In this document: positions 1 through 6,501 of the stretch, one piece after another
Layout of the letters: each line of letters opens with the position of its first letter
Numbering within the stretch: position 1 is the first letter of the stretch
Source: Bryobacterales bacterium
Lineage (GTDB): Bacteria > Acidobacteriota > Terriglobia > Bryobacterales > Bryobacteraceae
Length of the DNA stretch: 6,501 nucleotides
Direction of reading: 5' to 3'
NCBI GenBank assembly: GCA_003132865.1
Contig: PKYZ01000758.1
Location: forward strand, 1 to 6,501
Made by a program: the position numbers and the translations under genes
The notes under the pieces: model-generated
What the model saw: only the letters and a program-made list of their open reading frames with translations
Told to the model about the DNA's origin: nothing
Databases searched by the model: none

Positions 1-99
1 TTCCTTGGCGGAATCGGGGATGTAAAGGCCACCCTGCATGGTTTCCTTCTCCTCGATCCGTTTGACCACGATGCGGTCGTAAAGCGGACGAATCTTCAT
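1..99 (-). CDS. groES: Co-chaperonin GroES, N-terminal part (runs off the window)
   Basis: The first 33 codons of GroES, the 10-kDa lid of the GroEL folding chamber in the cytoplasm; the rest lies beyond base 1. The translation opens [14 protein letters not shown] and continues through [19 protein letters not shown], matching the GroES N-terminus: the (K/N)(I/L)RPL.DR(I/V).VKR strand, then the segment that enters the mobile loop (usually GGI.LP..A.E). The start is the ATG at 99-97, preceded by GGAGGT at 114-109 with 9 nt between. A CIRCE operator and promoter lie upstream, as expected for a groESL operon repressed by HrcA. groEL would be expected to follow outside the window, which cannot be seen. 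Identification is by motif and by the matching regulation. Confidence 0.93.
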
Positions 100-776: not shown

Positions 777-2441
777 TCAAGCCAAGTGGCGCACCGGGAA
801 CGCGGAGTATGCTGCGAGCCACCCCATGCAGTAGCGCGCCGCACGAACGGCCGCCGGGACCCCTGCGTTTGCCCGCTCCTTTGATCCGACCTCACGAGAG
901 ACGAGTTCGGACGGAAAGGCCTTGAATTTATTGGACTTCCGGTGCGCTCCGTGAAAAACCGGTTCCGCGCGCATGTCCTTGATCCCACGAGAGTTTCCGG
1001 TACATTTCCCTTGCGGCCGGGAAAGAACCAGATCCCGCCCGCCCCGCACTGAATCCTGGTGCGACAGAGCGGGGAGCTTCACAAACTCGAGTCGGCGCTG
1101 GGAGCCACTACCTACGGCTGCGACACCCAACAAGGCAACGGCCTGGGGCGGACGGTGATCATCAAAAGCCATGCGCAGTTGAGCCAGGAGCGATTCGAAC
1201 TCGCGTGACCCGGAGGACAGGCCCGGTCCGCAGAGATGCCAGCTACCGAGATGTTGGGCCAGAAACGGCAGGTCGCGCTTGCCCCGGAAGCGGTGCGGGC
1301 CGTCGAAAACTTCCTGCTCGGCCAACGCTCCCGCGCCGAAGACTTCGTAGATCCTCTTCACGCGCTCAAAGCTGGCGCGGCTGCCTGAAGTGGGAAAGAT
1401 AACGTCCTTCTCTCCCGATTCCGCGAAGAACGCGCGCGGCGCGGTGAGACCGGCCACGTCGTACATCTCGGCCCAGTTCAGAATCCCCGGCACGTAACAG
1501 TCGATGCAGTGGATATAGCTCATGATGCTGTCGCGGAAGGTGTTCAAGGAGCCACTGGCGAAGGCCGCGCGGATGCGCGTCTCGATCGCCGCCGCCCAGA
1601 TCGTGCATTCGCCGCCGTTGGAGATGCCCATGCAGCCCACACGTGCAGGGTCGAGCTCCTTGCGGGTCTCGATCCAATCGATGGTGCGGGAAACATCGTA
1701 GACGCGCCAGCCCATCGTCGTCTGGCCGAACAGCAGCGCGGCGCTGGCCCAAGGGTAGCAGGCAAATTGGTCCAGCCCATTTCTGGCCGGTCCATCTCGT
1801 TCCCGAGGATCGCGGCGGCAGCCGAACCCTATTGGCTCGATGGCCACGGCGGCCATTCCGTGCTCCACAACTTGGACGGCGTAATCATACTGGTAGTCCA
1901 CTTTGACCGTGCGGTCGCGGCCCATCCGGTCGATTCCCACTAGGTCGTCCACGCCCCGGCCGTGCCCAGGAAGGGCGATCACCGGTGCGTACGGTGGCTC
2001 GGCGTCTTTCGGAGCGAGCAGATAACCGAGCACAGTGAGGTCCGGCCGGCTCTGGAACACGAACTTCTCGCGCCGGTAGCCGGGGAAATCGCGCACTTCC
2101 AGCGTCTGCGGCTGAAGCGGCGAGCGTTTCTCGGGGAAGCCGCCTACCAACTCCAGCACTTTGGCACGCAGCGACCTTTGCCACTGTTCGGCTTCTGCGC
2201 GGGTCTTCGCCCGGAAGGTCATGCGGAGCGGCGCGCTTTCCTGCAACTTGCGCGTGTGCAGCATGGGGTTGAAGGCGGCGGTATCGACTTTGTCGTTGAA
2301 GCCATTTAGCGCTCCCGTGTATTTCTGCCGCGGCGAGCGCCTGCACGCTTCCATGGCGGTGATGGACGCCAACGCGACTCCAAGATCCCGCCGCGTGACC
2401 CGGCGGACGCCGATTTTCGAGGTTTCGGACATGATTTCCAT
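777..2441 (-). CDS. Secreted alpha/beta hydrolase (Abhydrolase_7 / acetyl-xylan-esterase-like) with unexplained C-terminal extension
   Basis: A 554-residue frame. Residues 1-33 carry a Tat-type leader, T16-R-R-D-L-G then a short hydrophobic stretch ending AMEAC (C33); the lipobox is poor, so lipid attachment is doubtful. The alpha/beta-hydrolase core follows: PGHGR at 158-162 near the oxyanion hole, the nucleophile elbow GISNGG with S274, the acid D346 in GEKDVIFP, and H383 in DGPHRF. The fold and triad indicate a periplasmic or exported carboxyl-ester hydrolase, perhaps acting on acetylated or lignocellulose-type carbohydrate esters; the substrate is inferred from related families. Family resemblance ends near residue 399 (base 1245). 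The remaining ~155 residues are Arg/Ser/Gly-rich, match nothing I know, and overlap a possible remnant on the other strand, so the original stop codon was probably lost. The start chosen is ATG 2441-2439 because GGAG lies 5 nt upstream and a TATAAT just before that; an in-frame start at 2555 lies upstream of this promoter. Confidence 0.75.
   Translation of the reverse strand: MEIMSETSKIGVRRVTRRDLGVALASITAMEACRRSPRQKYTGALNGFNDKVDTAAFNPMLHTRKLQESAPLRMTFRAKTRAEAEQWQRSLRAKVLELVGGFPEKRSPLQPQTLEVRDFPGYRREKFVFQSRPDLTVLGYLLAPKDAEPPYAPVIALPGHGRGVDDLVGIDRMGRDRTVKVDYQYDYAVQVVEHGMAAVAIEPIGFGCRRDPRERDGPARNGLDQFACYPWASAALLFGQTTMGWRVYDVSRTIDWIETRKELDPARVGCMGISNGGECTIWAAAIETRIRAAFASGSLNTFRDSIMSYIHCIDCYVPGILNWAEMYDVAGLTAPRAFFAESGEKDVIFPTSGSRASFERVKRIYEVFGAGALAEQEVFDGPHRFRGKRDLPFLAQHLGSWHLCGPGLSSGSREFESLLAQLRMAFDDHRPPQAVALLGVAAVGSGSQRRLEFVKLPALSHQDSVRGGRDLVLSRPQGKCTGNSRGIKDMRAEPVFHGAHRKSNKFKAFPSELVSREVGSKERANAGVPAAVRAARYCMGWLAAYSAFPVRHLA
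885..1208 (+). pseudogene. Possible C-terminal remnant of an unidentified protein
   Basis: One plus-strand frame gives protein-like sequence interrupted by a single TGA (1050-1052). Before it are segments such as EFIGLPVRSVKNRFRAHVLD (924-983) and GTFPLRPGKNQIPPAPH. After it comes a 51-residue end containing LVRQSGELHKLESALGATTY and GNGLGRTVIIKSHAQL, stopping at TGA 1206-1208. The residue mix (few runs, regular alternation of charged and hydrophobic residues) looks more natural than the opposing minus-strand translation. I do not recognise the family. There is no start codon with a ribosome binding site, so if real it is a 5'-truncated gene with one nonsense codon, converging on the hydrolase gene. 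The alternative is a chance open frame in GC-rich DNA. Confidence 0.3.
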
Positions 2442-2446
2442 TTTGG

Positions 2447-2468
2447 CTCCAGTTTCCTTAGCATTATA
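2447..2468 (-). promoter_or_regulatory. Promoter -10 and ribosome binding site of the hydrolase gene
   Basis: On the minus strand TATAAT (2468-2463) lies 22 bp upstream of the ATG at 2441, and GGAG (2450-2447) lies 5 nt before that ATG. No good -35 is found at the usual distance (GATCAA at 17 nt). If transcription begins near 2455 the leader is only about 14 nt. The pair decides the start codon in favour of 2441 over the upstream in-frame ATG. Confidence 0.45.
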
Positions 2469-2470
2469 TA

Positions 2471-2760
2471 ACCAGTCGCCGACTCTTGATCCTCCGAAAG
2501 ACTCCGGCTCAAATTGACGGGGCCGGGGAAGAACAACTCCTCTCTGAGAGAGCACGGGCAGGGGCTGCCAGTGGGCAATACCGGGCGTAGGCTCGGCATT
2601 GATGGCAATTACGGCATGGTGGCAACCTGTAATCTATTGCTTGCGGATTCTACGGGCCAGTCGGCGTTTGGGATTCCACACTCGCCCGGAGGAGAAACGA
2701 GACGATGGAACGAAATGATGCCCTCCTCCCCAATTTTCCCCAATTACAAAAACTCTTGAC
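2471..2760. other. Intergenic region upstream of the hydrolase, with a short CCCCAATT repeat
   Basis: No credible gene. The minus-strand frames here give Arg/Pro-rich or short unfamiliar peptides. CCCCAATT occurs twice in the same orientation at 2728-2735 and 2738-2745 (10-bp period, one helical turn), a possible but unproven protein binding site. The region separates the hydrolase from the IstA scrap, and may include non-coding remains of the same insertion sequence, though no terminal inverted repeat was seen. Confidence 0.4.
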
Positions 2761-2949
2761 TCAAGGGGGGAACTTGCAGCGCGGCGGCCGCTCCGCCGAG
2801 CCGTAGTTGTCGTAACGCACGTCCAGGTATCGGCGCACAAAGCGGTAATCGAAGACGCCGACTTCCAGGGCGGCGGCGCAGGCCGCCTCGACACTGGCGG
2901 CGCCGTACTTCTTGGCCAACGACTGAGCGCCTTGAGTCCGGCGCACCAT
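2761..2949 (-). pseudogene. istA: IS21-family transposase IstA, C-terminal remnant
   Basis: The frame carries AQSLAKKYGAASVEAACAAA followed by LEVGVFDYRFVRRYLD (about 2933-2820). This closely resembles the end of IstA in IS21 elements: a helical segment of the form L..LA.(R/K)YG...LEAAC..AL..G...Y..V..(I/Y)L that sits after the DDE core. Intact IstA is roughly 350-500 residues; here only about 45 are recognisable, with no DDE catalytic domain, no helix-turn-helix and no start. The sequence past VRYDN (about 2809) diverges from the family and reaches a TGA at 2763-2761. The helper ATPase gene istB, which normally follows directly, is not seen downstream (toward lower coordinates). This is an inert scrap of an old insertion and marks a probable rearrangement point beside the oxidoreductase pseudogene. 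Confidence 0.68.
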
Positions 2950-3059
2950 GCACTGGGGCCAGGATTGTGCGTGCGCGATACAACCTCGCCCATGCCCGAA
3001 ACCATGGAACAAGGCTAACTACCGGATTTGATTCCCAATCTGGTACGATTTGATAGCTC

Positions 3060-4120
3060 ATGACTTCCGGGGACCAGGAACGCGCTATCATCATCGGAGC
3101 AGGTCCGGCTGGACTGACGGCCGCGTTCGAGCTGCTTACGCGGACGGGGATCAAACCCATCGTCCTCGAGAAGAGCGACTACATTGGAGGCATCGCCCGG
3201 ATGGTGAACTACAAGGGCAAACCGCATCGACATCGGAGGGCATCGCTTCTTCTCAAAATCCGACCGTGTCATGGATTGGTGGCTGAAGATTCTTCCCCTG
3301 CAAACGTCTGAAAAGAGTCCGGTTACGATCCAGTACCACGGTATGGAGCAAGCCGTCACCCCCTCAGCATCCGTTCCCGACACCGATTCGGAGGACCGCG
3401 TGATGCTGTTGCGACGTCGCAAGTCCCGCATCTATTACATGCGCCACTTCTTCGAATACCCAATCTCGTTCAACTGGGATGCTCTCGTCAAAATCGGCTT
3501 CTGGCGGGCCTGCAAAATGGGCTTGAGCTATATCCGTAGCGCGCTATTCCCACTGAAGCAGCAAGACACCCGGGAGCAGTTCCTGATCAACCGGTTCGGC
3601 AGGGAACTGTACCGATGGTTCTTTAAGTCGTATAAAGTCGTATACGGAAAAGATCTGGGGCGTTCCGTGCACTCAGATCAGCGCCGAGTGGGGCACCCAA
3701 CGCATTAAGGGCCTGTCCATCTGGTCGACCCACCGCCACGCTTTGCGGAAGGCGACGCAGCTCAATAGTCGCGACATCCGGCAGAAAGGTACTGAGACGT
3801 CAGTGATCGAGCAGTTTCTGTACCCCAAGTTCGGCCCCGGGCAAATGTGGGAAGAAGTCGCGCGCCGCATCCGTGAAATGGGAGGCGAGATTCATACTGG
3901 CTGCCGCGCCGAGCGGATCGTGCCCGATGGCTGGTGCGTGAAGGCGATCGAGGCCACTCGCTCTGAAACCGGCCAGAGATAGACCTTCGAGGGCAAATAC
4001 TTTTTCTCGACGGCTCCGGTGAAGGAGATCATCCGGTCGTTAGACGTTGTGCCTCCGAAGAATATGTTGGAAGTTTCCGACGGCCTTGTTTACAGGGACT
4101 TTATCACGGTCGGTCTCCTG
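3060..4120 (+). pseudogene. FAD-dependent oxidoreductase (UDP-galactopyranose mutase / protoporphyrinogen oxidase-like), pseudogene
   Basis: Joining three frames restores one flavoprotein. It begins [19 protein letters not shown], a Rossmann GxGxxG FAD-binding motif (G13, G15, G18), then E37 in VLEKS and [14 protein letters not shown] second frame continues [20 protein letters not shown] and [10 protein letters not shown], and a third continues [20 protein letters not shown] through FFSTAPVKEIIRSLD to DGLVYRDFITVGLL. Such proteins (about 480-510 residues) are common in exopolysaccharide loci. Lesions: one extra A at about 3219-3221 (AAACCGC for AACCGC); a 10-bp tandem duplication at 3625-3644; TAG at 3980-3982; and loss of the C-terminal ~130-150 residues at 4120, where the sequence joins the end of wzz. 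About 350 residues can be reconstructed. The start is ATG 3060, with no clear ribosome binding site. The exact substrate is unknown. The family call is by motif and confident at fold level. Confidence 0.85.
3625..3644 (+). repeat. 10-bp tandem duplication that breaks the oxidoreductase frame
   Basis: AAGTCGTATA occurs twice, back to back (3625-3634 and 3635-3644). With one copy the codons read [13 protein letters not shown], as expected for this family. With two copies the frame moves by +1 and ends at a stop near 3708. Typical of replication slippage. Confidence 0.9.
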
Positions 4121-5511
4121 GCGACGTCGGCTTTTCCGGTACCCGCGCGACATCCAGCATCACGAAGCGTTCCGCCTTCTGCCACCGTTCCATGTTCGCC
4201 GCCATTTCCGCGGCCAGCGTCTTGTCGAGCAGAGACTTGTAGTTCGCCTTACTGGCTTCATAATCGCGGGTAAGGCTCGCCAGTTGTTGCTCCCTCATGG
4301 GCAGCTTGTCCATCCGGCTCTGGACGGCGCCGACATCGCGCAGCACCCTTTCCCGCCGCTTCTCGAGGTCTCCGATTTCACGGTCAGTCAGGGCGATCTG
4401 CGACTTAAGACTTGCGACCTTCTCTTTCTCAGTCACGAGGGTAGGGTCGCTGTTCGTCACAGCCATGGCAGTCGACACTCTCTTGTCATTAGACGCCGGG
4501 GTATCGCCCGCGCTCGCGGCCGCTTCTTCGGTTACAGCCTTCTCCAGCGCGGCCTGTTTCCGCAGCAGAGCCTGGATTTCCGAGTAGCCATCGCGGTAGC
4601 GCAGCCGGAGAGTGCCGATCTCCGCGCGAACGCGCTGCAGCTCCGCGCGCGGCCCCTGCTGGGCAGGCTGCCCTGGCTCGACCGCCGCACTGGAAGACGA
4701 ATCCTGCGCCGCGCTCCGCCGGGCCAGATCTTGCAGCCGGCTCACGCTGTCCTCGGCCATCGCCAGCGAACTCGTTAGGATGAGCTTGTTCTGTTGCCCT
4801 CCCGATCGAGTCCTGAATGCCCAATAACTCCGCTTTGTTCTGCCCGTTCGCCGCCAACATGCCCAGCTCCTGCTCGGGCAATTCGCCGTTGTAAGTCACC
4901 TTGAACTCACGGAGCTTGGCTTCCTGCTCCTGCAAATTCGTCTTGGCGGTTTCGATCTGGCTCTCCAGGAACTGCGAAGTGCCGTTGGCTTCTTGCTCGC
5001 GCTCGCGCAGATTCTCAGTGATGAAGAAGTTGCCGACCCGGTTCGCCACCTGGGCGGCGATATTCGGCGAAAACGCGCGATACGATACCCGGAAGGCGCC
5101 CGGCCGGTTGGCGCTTCAGCCCCGCTCCAGACCGATGGTGATATCGTGGCGCATCGCCTCCAGAACTTCTTCCCTGGTCCGTTTATTCCGCAGCGTGGGA
5201 TAGAGGTTCAATTCCTGGATCAGAGTCCAGAGACGCTCGCGGCTCAGTGCCTGATGTTTGAGTTGATCGAGCCGCGCTTCCAGTCCGGTCTGGACTGTCG
5301 GCGTTACGAAGTTCTCGGGGATCTTCTGCGATTCCACCAGAATCAGCGCGTCGGAGGTGTAGACCCGCGGCAGACTGAAGAGGACCACCATGCTCGCCAC
5401 GATGCCAGCCGCCCACAGAACGGCAATGAGCGCCTTCCACTTCCACAGCGCGCGTATCACCGAGCGCGCCGGCATCGCGAAACCACTAACTTGCATTTGA
5501 AGAACGCTCAC
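4121..5511 (-). pseudogene. Wzz/GNVR polysaccharide chain-length determinant, pseudogene
   Basis: An inner-membrane polysaccharide co-polymerase controlling exopolysaccharide chain length or export. Segments in order: a transmembrane helix at about residues 27-47 (ALIAVLWAAGIVASMVVLF); the Wzz domain with YTSDALILVESQKIPENFV; SPNIAAQVANRVGNFFITEN; a long Gln/Glu/Lys/Leu-rich coiled coil; then the GNVR-type segment LTRDYEASKANYKSLLDK; and RVPEKPTSP, the proline motif just before the second transmembrane helix. That helix is missing because the sequence breaks at 4120/4121. Other lesions: TGA at 5118-5116 between ITIGLERG and SANRPGAFRVSYRAF, and one extra A (minus strand) at 4794-4795, after which NKLILTSSLAMAEDSVSRLQ resumes in another frame. 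About 463 residues are recoverable, shorter than the family's usual 500-700. The start is GTG 5511-5509, with GAGGAG 9 nt upstream. It is third in an operon, 44 nt after the nusG-like gene. Confidence 0.88.
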
Positions 5512-5555: not shown

Positions 5556-6087
5556 TCACGCAGCCGCACGCTCTCTGCTTGTCGAGTAGGCCGGTTTGCT
5601 AGGCTCCGCCCAATCGTACTCGATTTCCACCGTAACGGAGCGCCGTAGCATCTCCACCGATACGACAAGCCGGCTGCGATTCTTGGAGGCGATTACAATA
5701 CCCTCCACCCCAGCCAACGGCCCGTGATTGATGTAAACGAACTGACCGGCCTTGAGGAACGGCCAGGACCGGCAAACCCGATTCGACAATTCTTTGGATA
5801 GCCGCAATCTCACCGTCCTGCACCGCAACTGCGCACTTGCCGACACCGACGATCGACGCCACGCCCAGCGTGTTCAACAAAGGCACGCGCTGCTGCAAGT
5901 CCATCCGGCAGAACAAATAGCCCGGGAAGAGGGCGCACTCGACGACCTTGGTGCGATCCGACCAGCGGCGCTTCGCCAAGTACGTCGGCAAGAAAACCTC
6001 GTAGTCCTTTTGGCGCAAGCTCTGGGCCACGATCCGTTCGAAGTTACTTCGCACCGCCACTGCATACCACGCGGCATTAAGCATCAT
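5556..6087 (-). pseudogene. NusG/RfaH-like transcription antitermination factor, frameshifted
   Basis: A specialised NusG paralog (UpxY/LoaP/RfaH type) of the kind that binds RNA polymerase and lets it read through long polysaccharide operons. The NGN domain covers residues 6 to about 105: AAWYAVAVRSNFERIVAQSL, then EVFLPTYLAKRRWSDRTKVV, and ALFPGYLFCRMD, the (L/F)FPGY(L/V)F strand typical of NGN. The KOW half follows in another frame: PFLKAGQFVYINHGPLAGVE, then NRSRLVVSVEMLRRSVTVEI and EYDW. The frame changes at about 5764-5770, where GTCCTGGCCGTTCC has a net +1 (or -2) relative to an expected (P)WPFLK. Reconstructed length is 176 residues, normal for the family. Start is ATG 6087 or the adjacent ATG 6084; AGAGG lies 5 nt before the first. 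The upstream gene's stop is only 8 nt away. As written, the protein would have an NGN domain but no KOW domain. Confidence 0.87.
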
Positions 6088-6095
6088 GGGTGCCT

Positions 6096-6386
6096 CTAAA
6101 GTTCCTTTTCCGGCGCGGCGCCAAGCTTCTGGTTGCTCACGACTTCAGTGAGGCCTTGGATTGTTCCGGACAACCCCGAAATCAACCCGCTCAATGCAGT
6201 CACTCGCTCGGTCAAACCGGAAAGCGTATATCCGCGTTCTTCGGCGACGAGGATCTCCAATCCAGCGCGTGCCAAATCGGAGATGCTTCGTACTCCTTGC
6301 GACCGGCAGAATGCCATGTACCTTTCAAACTCCGCTTCGCTAACGCGAAAATAGACGACTTTCGTCCTGCTCCGAATTAAAGTCAT
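6096..6386 (-). CDS. Small ribbon-helix-helix-like protein with coiled-coil tail
   Basis: A 96-residue intact frame. The N-terminal half (TLIRSRTKVVYFRVSEAEFE, then RYMAFCRSQGVRSISDLARA and GLEIL) has the shape of a MetJ/Arc ribbon-helix-helix DNA-binding unit: a short strand, then two helices with SISDLARAG in the second. The C-terminal half (LTERVTALSGLISGLSGTIQ onward) has hydrophobic residues every three to four positions and should form a coiled coil. The gene ends 8 nt before the nusG-like gene, so the two are co-transcribed. Placement as first gene of a polysaccharide operon suggests an operon regulator; that role is inference. The start chosen is ATG 6386-6384, with a purine-rich GCGGGG 4 nt upstream. 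An in-frame GTG at 6440 would add 18 residues with four cysteines and has no good ribosome binding site. Confidence 0.68.
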   Translation of the reverse strand: MTLIRSRTKVVYFRVSEAEFERYMAFCRSQGVRSISDLARAGLEILVAEERGYTLSGLTERVTALSGLISGLSGTIQGLTEVVSNQKLGAAPEKEL

Positions 6387-6501
6387 TGCAGCCCCGCAAA
6401 TACACATGATGGAATTACAGGACTCGCACACCGGAGACACGAGATCTTTAGGATCCGCTCAAGCGAGTTTTCATTTATTATCACTGCTGTCCGGTTAGAA
6501 G
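6387..6501 (-). promoter_or_regulatory. Upstream region of the exopolysaccharide operon head
   Basis: No other gene is seen. On the minus strand TGTAAT (6419-6414, 5/6 to the -10 consensus) would start transcription close to 6405, giving a short leader before ATG 6386; no matching -35 is evident. A small inverted repeat CGCT-CA-AGCG lies at 6457-6466, a possible operator half. The promoter call is tentative. Confidence 0.3.

Follow-up and report, generated by a model that had tools for sequence, protein, structure and literature searches.

The window analysed here (the whole stretch of DNA, 6,501 nucleotides) very probably contains a junction formed by non-homologous rearrangement, at which two pseudogenes of a decaying exopolysaccharide locus meet. 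Sequence resembling the FAD-dependent oxidoreductase family NF005546 on the plus strand and sequence resembling the polysaccharide chain-length determinant family TIGR03007 on the minus strand, otherwise unrelated, abut tail to tail at a single base, as judged from profiles and from relatives on both sides. The two profile matches end at one and the same base, which excludes chance. Both genes carry frameshifts and stops besides their truncation and were classed as pseudogenes. The original prediction treated the genes as truncated by the join; each bears separate frameshifts and stops, which makes the join one lesion among several and not necessarily the one that inactivated them.

Two broken genes and their neighbours

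The oxidoreductase remnant (3060..4120, plus strand) consists of the 5' two thirds of the gene and was recovered as four open reading frame (ORF) pieces (3060-3311, 3271-3708, 3743-3982 and 4019-4273), which matched positions 4-52, 69-193, 227-297 and 312-347 of the 527-position NCBIfam NF005546 profile in that order. Like proteins of this family (PRK07208.1-2 type), the window copy has a Rossmann region at its N-terminus and the middle of the protein as far as profile position 347, but it lacks the C-terminal third and carries two frameshifts and one stop. The best-scoring piece reached 133.1 bits, below the cut-off of 418 for a functional oxidoreductase of this type. By tblastn, the oxidoreductase of locus L005 matched the window in three frames (3066-3218, 3214-3633 and 3632-4126), and the frame switch between the first two adjoining matches places one frameshift approximately at 3214..3218. 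The other frameshift is a perfect 10-bp tandem duplication, AAGTCGTATA twice (3625..3644, located by script), inside which the tblastn frame changes; it is the only perfect tandem duplication in the window with a unit of 7-39 bp. The stop is an in-frame TAG at 3980..3982, found by script and in the ORF list. Six plasmid records were found to encode oxidoreductases, all of them distant (<60% identity).

The remnant on the minus strand (4119..5511) is a broken Wzz/XrtA-type polysaccharide chain-length determinant (NCBIfam TIGR03007, Pfam PF02706). The PF02706 match sits at the start of Wzz, and the TIGR03007 profile was matched in three pieces (positions 5-119, 143-213 and 245-411 of 498). The window copy thus shares with this Wzz/PCP family the Wzz domain at the start and the coiled region as far as position 411, but it is without the second transmembrane helix (TM2) and the C-terminal tail, and has one stop and one frameshift upstream. 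With TM2 absent, the best piece scored 66.2 bits against a cut-off of 278.85 for a functional member. The stop is an in-frame TGA at 5116..5118 (located by script), across which the tblastn frame of the L003 Wzz protein is unchanged (5592-4786). The frameshift lies somewhere within 4670..4824, where the profile match passes from ORF 4489-5049 into the frame of ORF 4104-4760; by eye, it was placed near 4797-4805.

Upstream of wzz on the same strand lies a frameshifted gene for an UpxY/NusG-type antiterminator (5556..6087), of which the N part (5599-6087) matched PF02357 and positions 1-103 of NF033644, and the C-terminal part (5556-5846) matched positions 114-160 of NF033644 in a different frame. 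A 114-codon open frame upstream of UpxY (6096-6440, minus strand) gave no match in Pfam or PHROGs. Toward the other end of the window, an uninterrupted 592-codon open frame (777..2555, minus strand) was used as a local control of sequence quality, which strictly is valid for its family-matched part only (Pfam Abhydrolase_7 at residues 112-330, with a match to an acetyl xylan esterase in PDB reaching residue 367). Window positions 1-99 (minus strand) carry the start of groES (family ...00166, 34.4 bits), a housekeeping gene next to the decayed locus. Two further candidates were rejected. Positions 321-361 on the plus strand resemble what we take to be a serine tRNA of which the 5' half is present, ending behind the anticodon stem; neither ARAGORN nor Rfam gave a match there. 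Positions 2761-3012 on the minus strand presumably resemble, by motif, the end of an IS21-type transposase (IstA); no remnant is claimed, nothing convincing having been found in Pfam, NCBIfam, PHROGs, PDB sequences or plasmid tblastn.

The frameshifts may be read instead as sequencing or assembly errors, with both genes intact up to the join. One of the oxidoreductase shifts does lie beside a run of A and the wzz shift probably beside runs of G, places typical of indel errors, but neither the two in-frame stops nor a tandem duplication of 10 bp without mismatch is the usual type of error. A general sequencing or indel error is moreover a poor explanation while the nearby 592-codon frame stays open, and P0001, a relative described below, begins at the same internal methionine as the window frame. 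We consider this reading improbable; lesions in the oxidoreductase, wzz and UpxY next to an uninterrupted 592-codon frame point to decay.

The join and the proteins that span it

The join was located by codon bookkeeping against the oxidoreductase relative P0040 and the Wzz relatives. The dinucleotide TG at 4119..4120 is attributable to either gene, with oxidoreductase sequence to its left and antisense wzz sequence to its right. The last possible oxidoreductase codon is CTG (4118-4120), and CCA (4121-4119) is the final codon of Wzz, followed by GGA GAC CGA CCG, which is the antisense of the oxidoreductase; given ancestral CCA and CTG codons, T4119 and G4120 fit either side. P0040, the only match among three candidates, reads YRDFITVGLLLRSLRVNDETPQ where the window reads YRDFITVGLLATSAFP; the two are the same as far as GLL, after which P0040 continues as LRSLRVNDETPQ and the window as ATSAFP. 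On the other strand, the Wzz relatives read VPEKPTSPNRPVFMTGG and the window reads VPEKPTSPGDRP followed by a stop: the relatives go on as PTSPNRPVFMTGG through TM2, and the window as PTSPGDRP with the stop at 4106-4104. Ends of tblastn matches fell at 4126 for the L005 oxidoreductase, at 4119 for the relative P0002 and at 4107 for the Wzz relative P0003, the last of which overruns the join by way of the look-alike residues RP.

These results bear out most of what had been proposed for the join. The oxidoreductase had been said to read in family to 4120, and the end of the NF005546 match and the comparison with P0040 agree; Wzz, proposed to do so to about 4121, is recognisable to 4119 by TIGR03007 and by its relatives, within a base or two of that position. 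The bookkeeping also upholds the statement that each gene runs on into the antisense of the other, and gene annotation should pass over the frames that read antisense in this way near 4120 (plus-strand frame 4047-4778, for example). The Wzz TM2 and the oxidoreductase C-terminus are gone from this place, as had been claimed: tblastn with relatives found the missing 3' part of neither gene in the window, and the TM2 tail of P0003 alone had no match in the window at E <= 1.

The overlap had been put at a few bases at most and attributed to illegitimate recombination. Judged from protein relatives, the shared bases would number two to three at most, which makes homologous recombination unlikely and end-joining or replication slippage likely, in keeping with the proposal of joining without homology. 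Among repeats, the join is touched only by an inverted pair of 12 nt (4118-4129 and 3412-3423). Nine pairs of this kind occur in 3.9 kb, in our judgement no more than chance level.

Mobile and viral DNA was searched as well. Nothing in plasmid and phage DNA matched window positions 3900-4300, and neither the Wzz alignment nor an oxidoreductase piece had relatives in viral contigs, in which a 22-base oxidoreductase pattern had 0 matches. A 17-base join pattern occurred in three viral stretches; these were taken as chance, and 11 protein pieces of the window had no match there at E <= 1e-3. A search of the literature returned nothing on this locus and, judged by titles and the openings of abstracts, nothing on point about such junctions.

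Wzz relatives were collected as a set of 39, with lengths of 0.55-1.75 times that of the 218-residue query, so that full-length Wzz proteins were excluded. Sequence extends beyond the join in 37 of them: 34 have at least 60 residues counted from the KPxP motif, P0037 being one of these with a tail that soon diverges from the family, and the other three lack the motif and have the LGEWEL tail. The two short ones are P0001, which has 19 residues counted in this way, and P0005, which has 9, the join itself.

P0005 ends in PTSPGDRP, identical to the joined end of the window, and agrees with the end of the window frame at 109 of 112 residues, including the four residues that are antisense oxidoreductase; one of the three differences is at the extreme edge. 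Its residues 1-52 show no relation to the window (best E 0.5), and the only other protein found for them was P0041 (87% identical over the 52 residues), for which there was no Pfam match. The profile matches of P0005 were coiled-coil-like and below cut-off. Both P0005 and P0041 carry the source label 'src'. According to a passage in one paper, a soil reference catalogue assembled by Plass is one source of the BFD database (PMC10864179), and the label of P0005 presumably denotes that catalogue. The N-terminal 52 residues of P0005 may derive from a second rearrangement or from an assembly chimera. If 'src' stands for protein-level assembly of reads, this N-terminal part may be chimeric; the end of P0005 would still require reads with the join sequence, and it is difficult to account for if no reads contain the join.

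In the 214 residues that precede the join, P0001 has two substitutions relative to the window, and it starts at the same internal methionine as window frame 4104-4760. It is without the join and continues as PTSPNRPVFMTGGAARLH, with VFMTGGAARLH at residues 218-228, where TM2 usually stands; this odd tail is perhaps the product of a frameshift or of another breakpoint. P0001 represents a cluster of 19 sequences at the 90% level, whose members may differ from the representative. The internal methionine start fits an upstream frameshift common to P0001 and the window, and may also have another cause. The P0001 sequence suggests a population in which wzz may already have been shifted upstream while the join was absent. 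Provided that P0001 really starts at this methionine, wzz would have been broken first and the join would be a recent event within one species.

These two proteins bear in opposite directions on the objection that an assembler fused two unrelated stretches at 4119/4120. An assembly chimera would fit the sharing of no more than about 2 bp at the join, and also the lack of the join in P0001, which is near-identical before it. Against this, P0005 is a separate protein with the same four residues after the join and the same end, and the only repeat at the join is the short inverted pair. A chimera confined to a single contig is made unlikely by P0005, and overall we regard this explanation as very improbable. 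As P0005 has the same join under a different upstream sequence, common to P0041, it is conceivable that the join-bearing piece was re-used. That the truncated wzz with its join spreads or persists as a unit, re-used in a second rearrangement, for instance by way of a mobile element, is however a highly doubtful extension.

Deletion or inversion

Non-homologous joining could have arisen here in two main ways. A deletion requires that the genes were convergent, and an inversion that they were co-directional. A deletion, for which the genes would have been convergent at the time, is slightly favoured, on the ground that deletions dominate in decaying bacterial DNA. Weighed across all mechanisms, we give deletion about an even chance and regard inversion between co-directional genes as a tentative possibility and any other process as unlikely. 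Had an inversion broken each of two co-directional genes once, their 5' parts would lie tail to tail, as seen here, and the 3' parts would now be joined elsewhere. The original prediction held that both 3' ends were lost in a single event. The single join stands; the loss does not follow, since an inversion would relocate the 3' ends.

Gene order was sought in relatives. Genes within one polysaccharide locus usually point the same way, which we count on general grounds in favour of inversion. Nine genomes, all distant relatives, were searched for both families (in one of them with the oxidoreductase piece of the window, not the family profile). In two of the nine, weak Wzz-family and oxidoreductase matches were found on the same contig and strand, leaning slightly toward inversion: in G010 a Wzz-family match of 17.9 bits lies about 1 kb from an oxidoreductase match of 50.3 bits, and in G017 Wzz-family matches of 20.2 and 18.1 bits lie about 17 kb from an oxidoreductase match of 160.3 bits, both oxidoreductase matches being under the family cut-off. 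Against inversion, the strong Wzz and strong oxidoreductase matches in the nine genomes were on separate contigs. In G012 and G018, oxidoreductase-like scraps of about 19 bits occurred far off on a Wzz contig. The Wzz N-terminal piece matched only three loci among the genome contigs, all from Nitrospira/Nitrospirae (33-42% identity), and one of the three genomes carrying these loci also had a match to the oxidoreductase piece. In 295 genomes of the Nitrospira/Nitrospirae phylum, P0003 had a single match at E <= 1e-30, and its 36% identity indicates that no close relative of the window is present among those 295.

Probable decay of the locus

A sequence of events consistent with the lesions can be outlined. 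The oxidoreductase gene and wzz would first have gathered stops and shifts of frame; breakage of both DNA strands or a replication error would then have linked the interior of one to the interior of the other, with about 2 bp of chance identity used at the joining, and each remnant would thereafter have read into the antisense strand of the other gene. The lesions thus presumably preceded or accompanied the join, and the join itself is probably without function. The closest known systems are bacterial pseudogene fusions at illegitimate (microhomology) deletion or inversion breakpoints, with which the window has in common two truncated genes that meet at one base and share about 2 bp, with other inactivating lesions nearby.

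The host is probably an uncultured bacterium of soil origin. The window would accordingly be a view of a polysaccharide locus under dismantling, probably in an environmental bacterium, in which the same rearrangement is found in two separate sequences and is missing from a near-identical third. Otherwise, the junction is an ordinary scar of gene decay.
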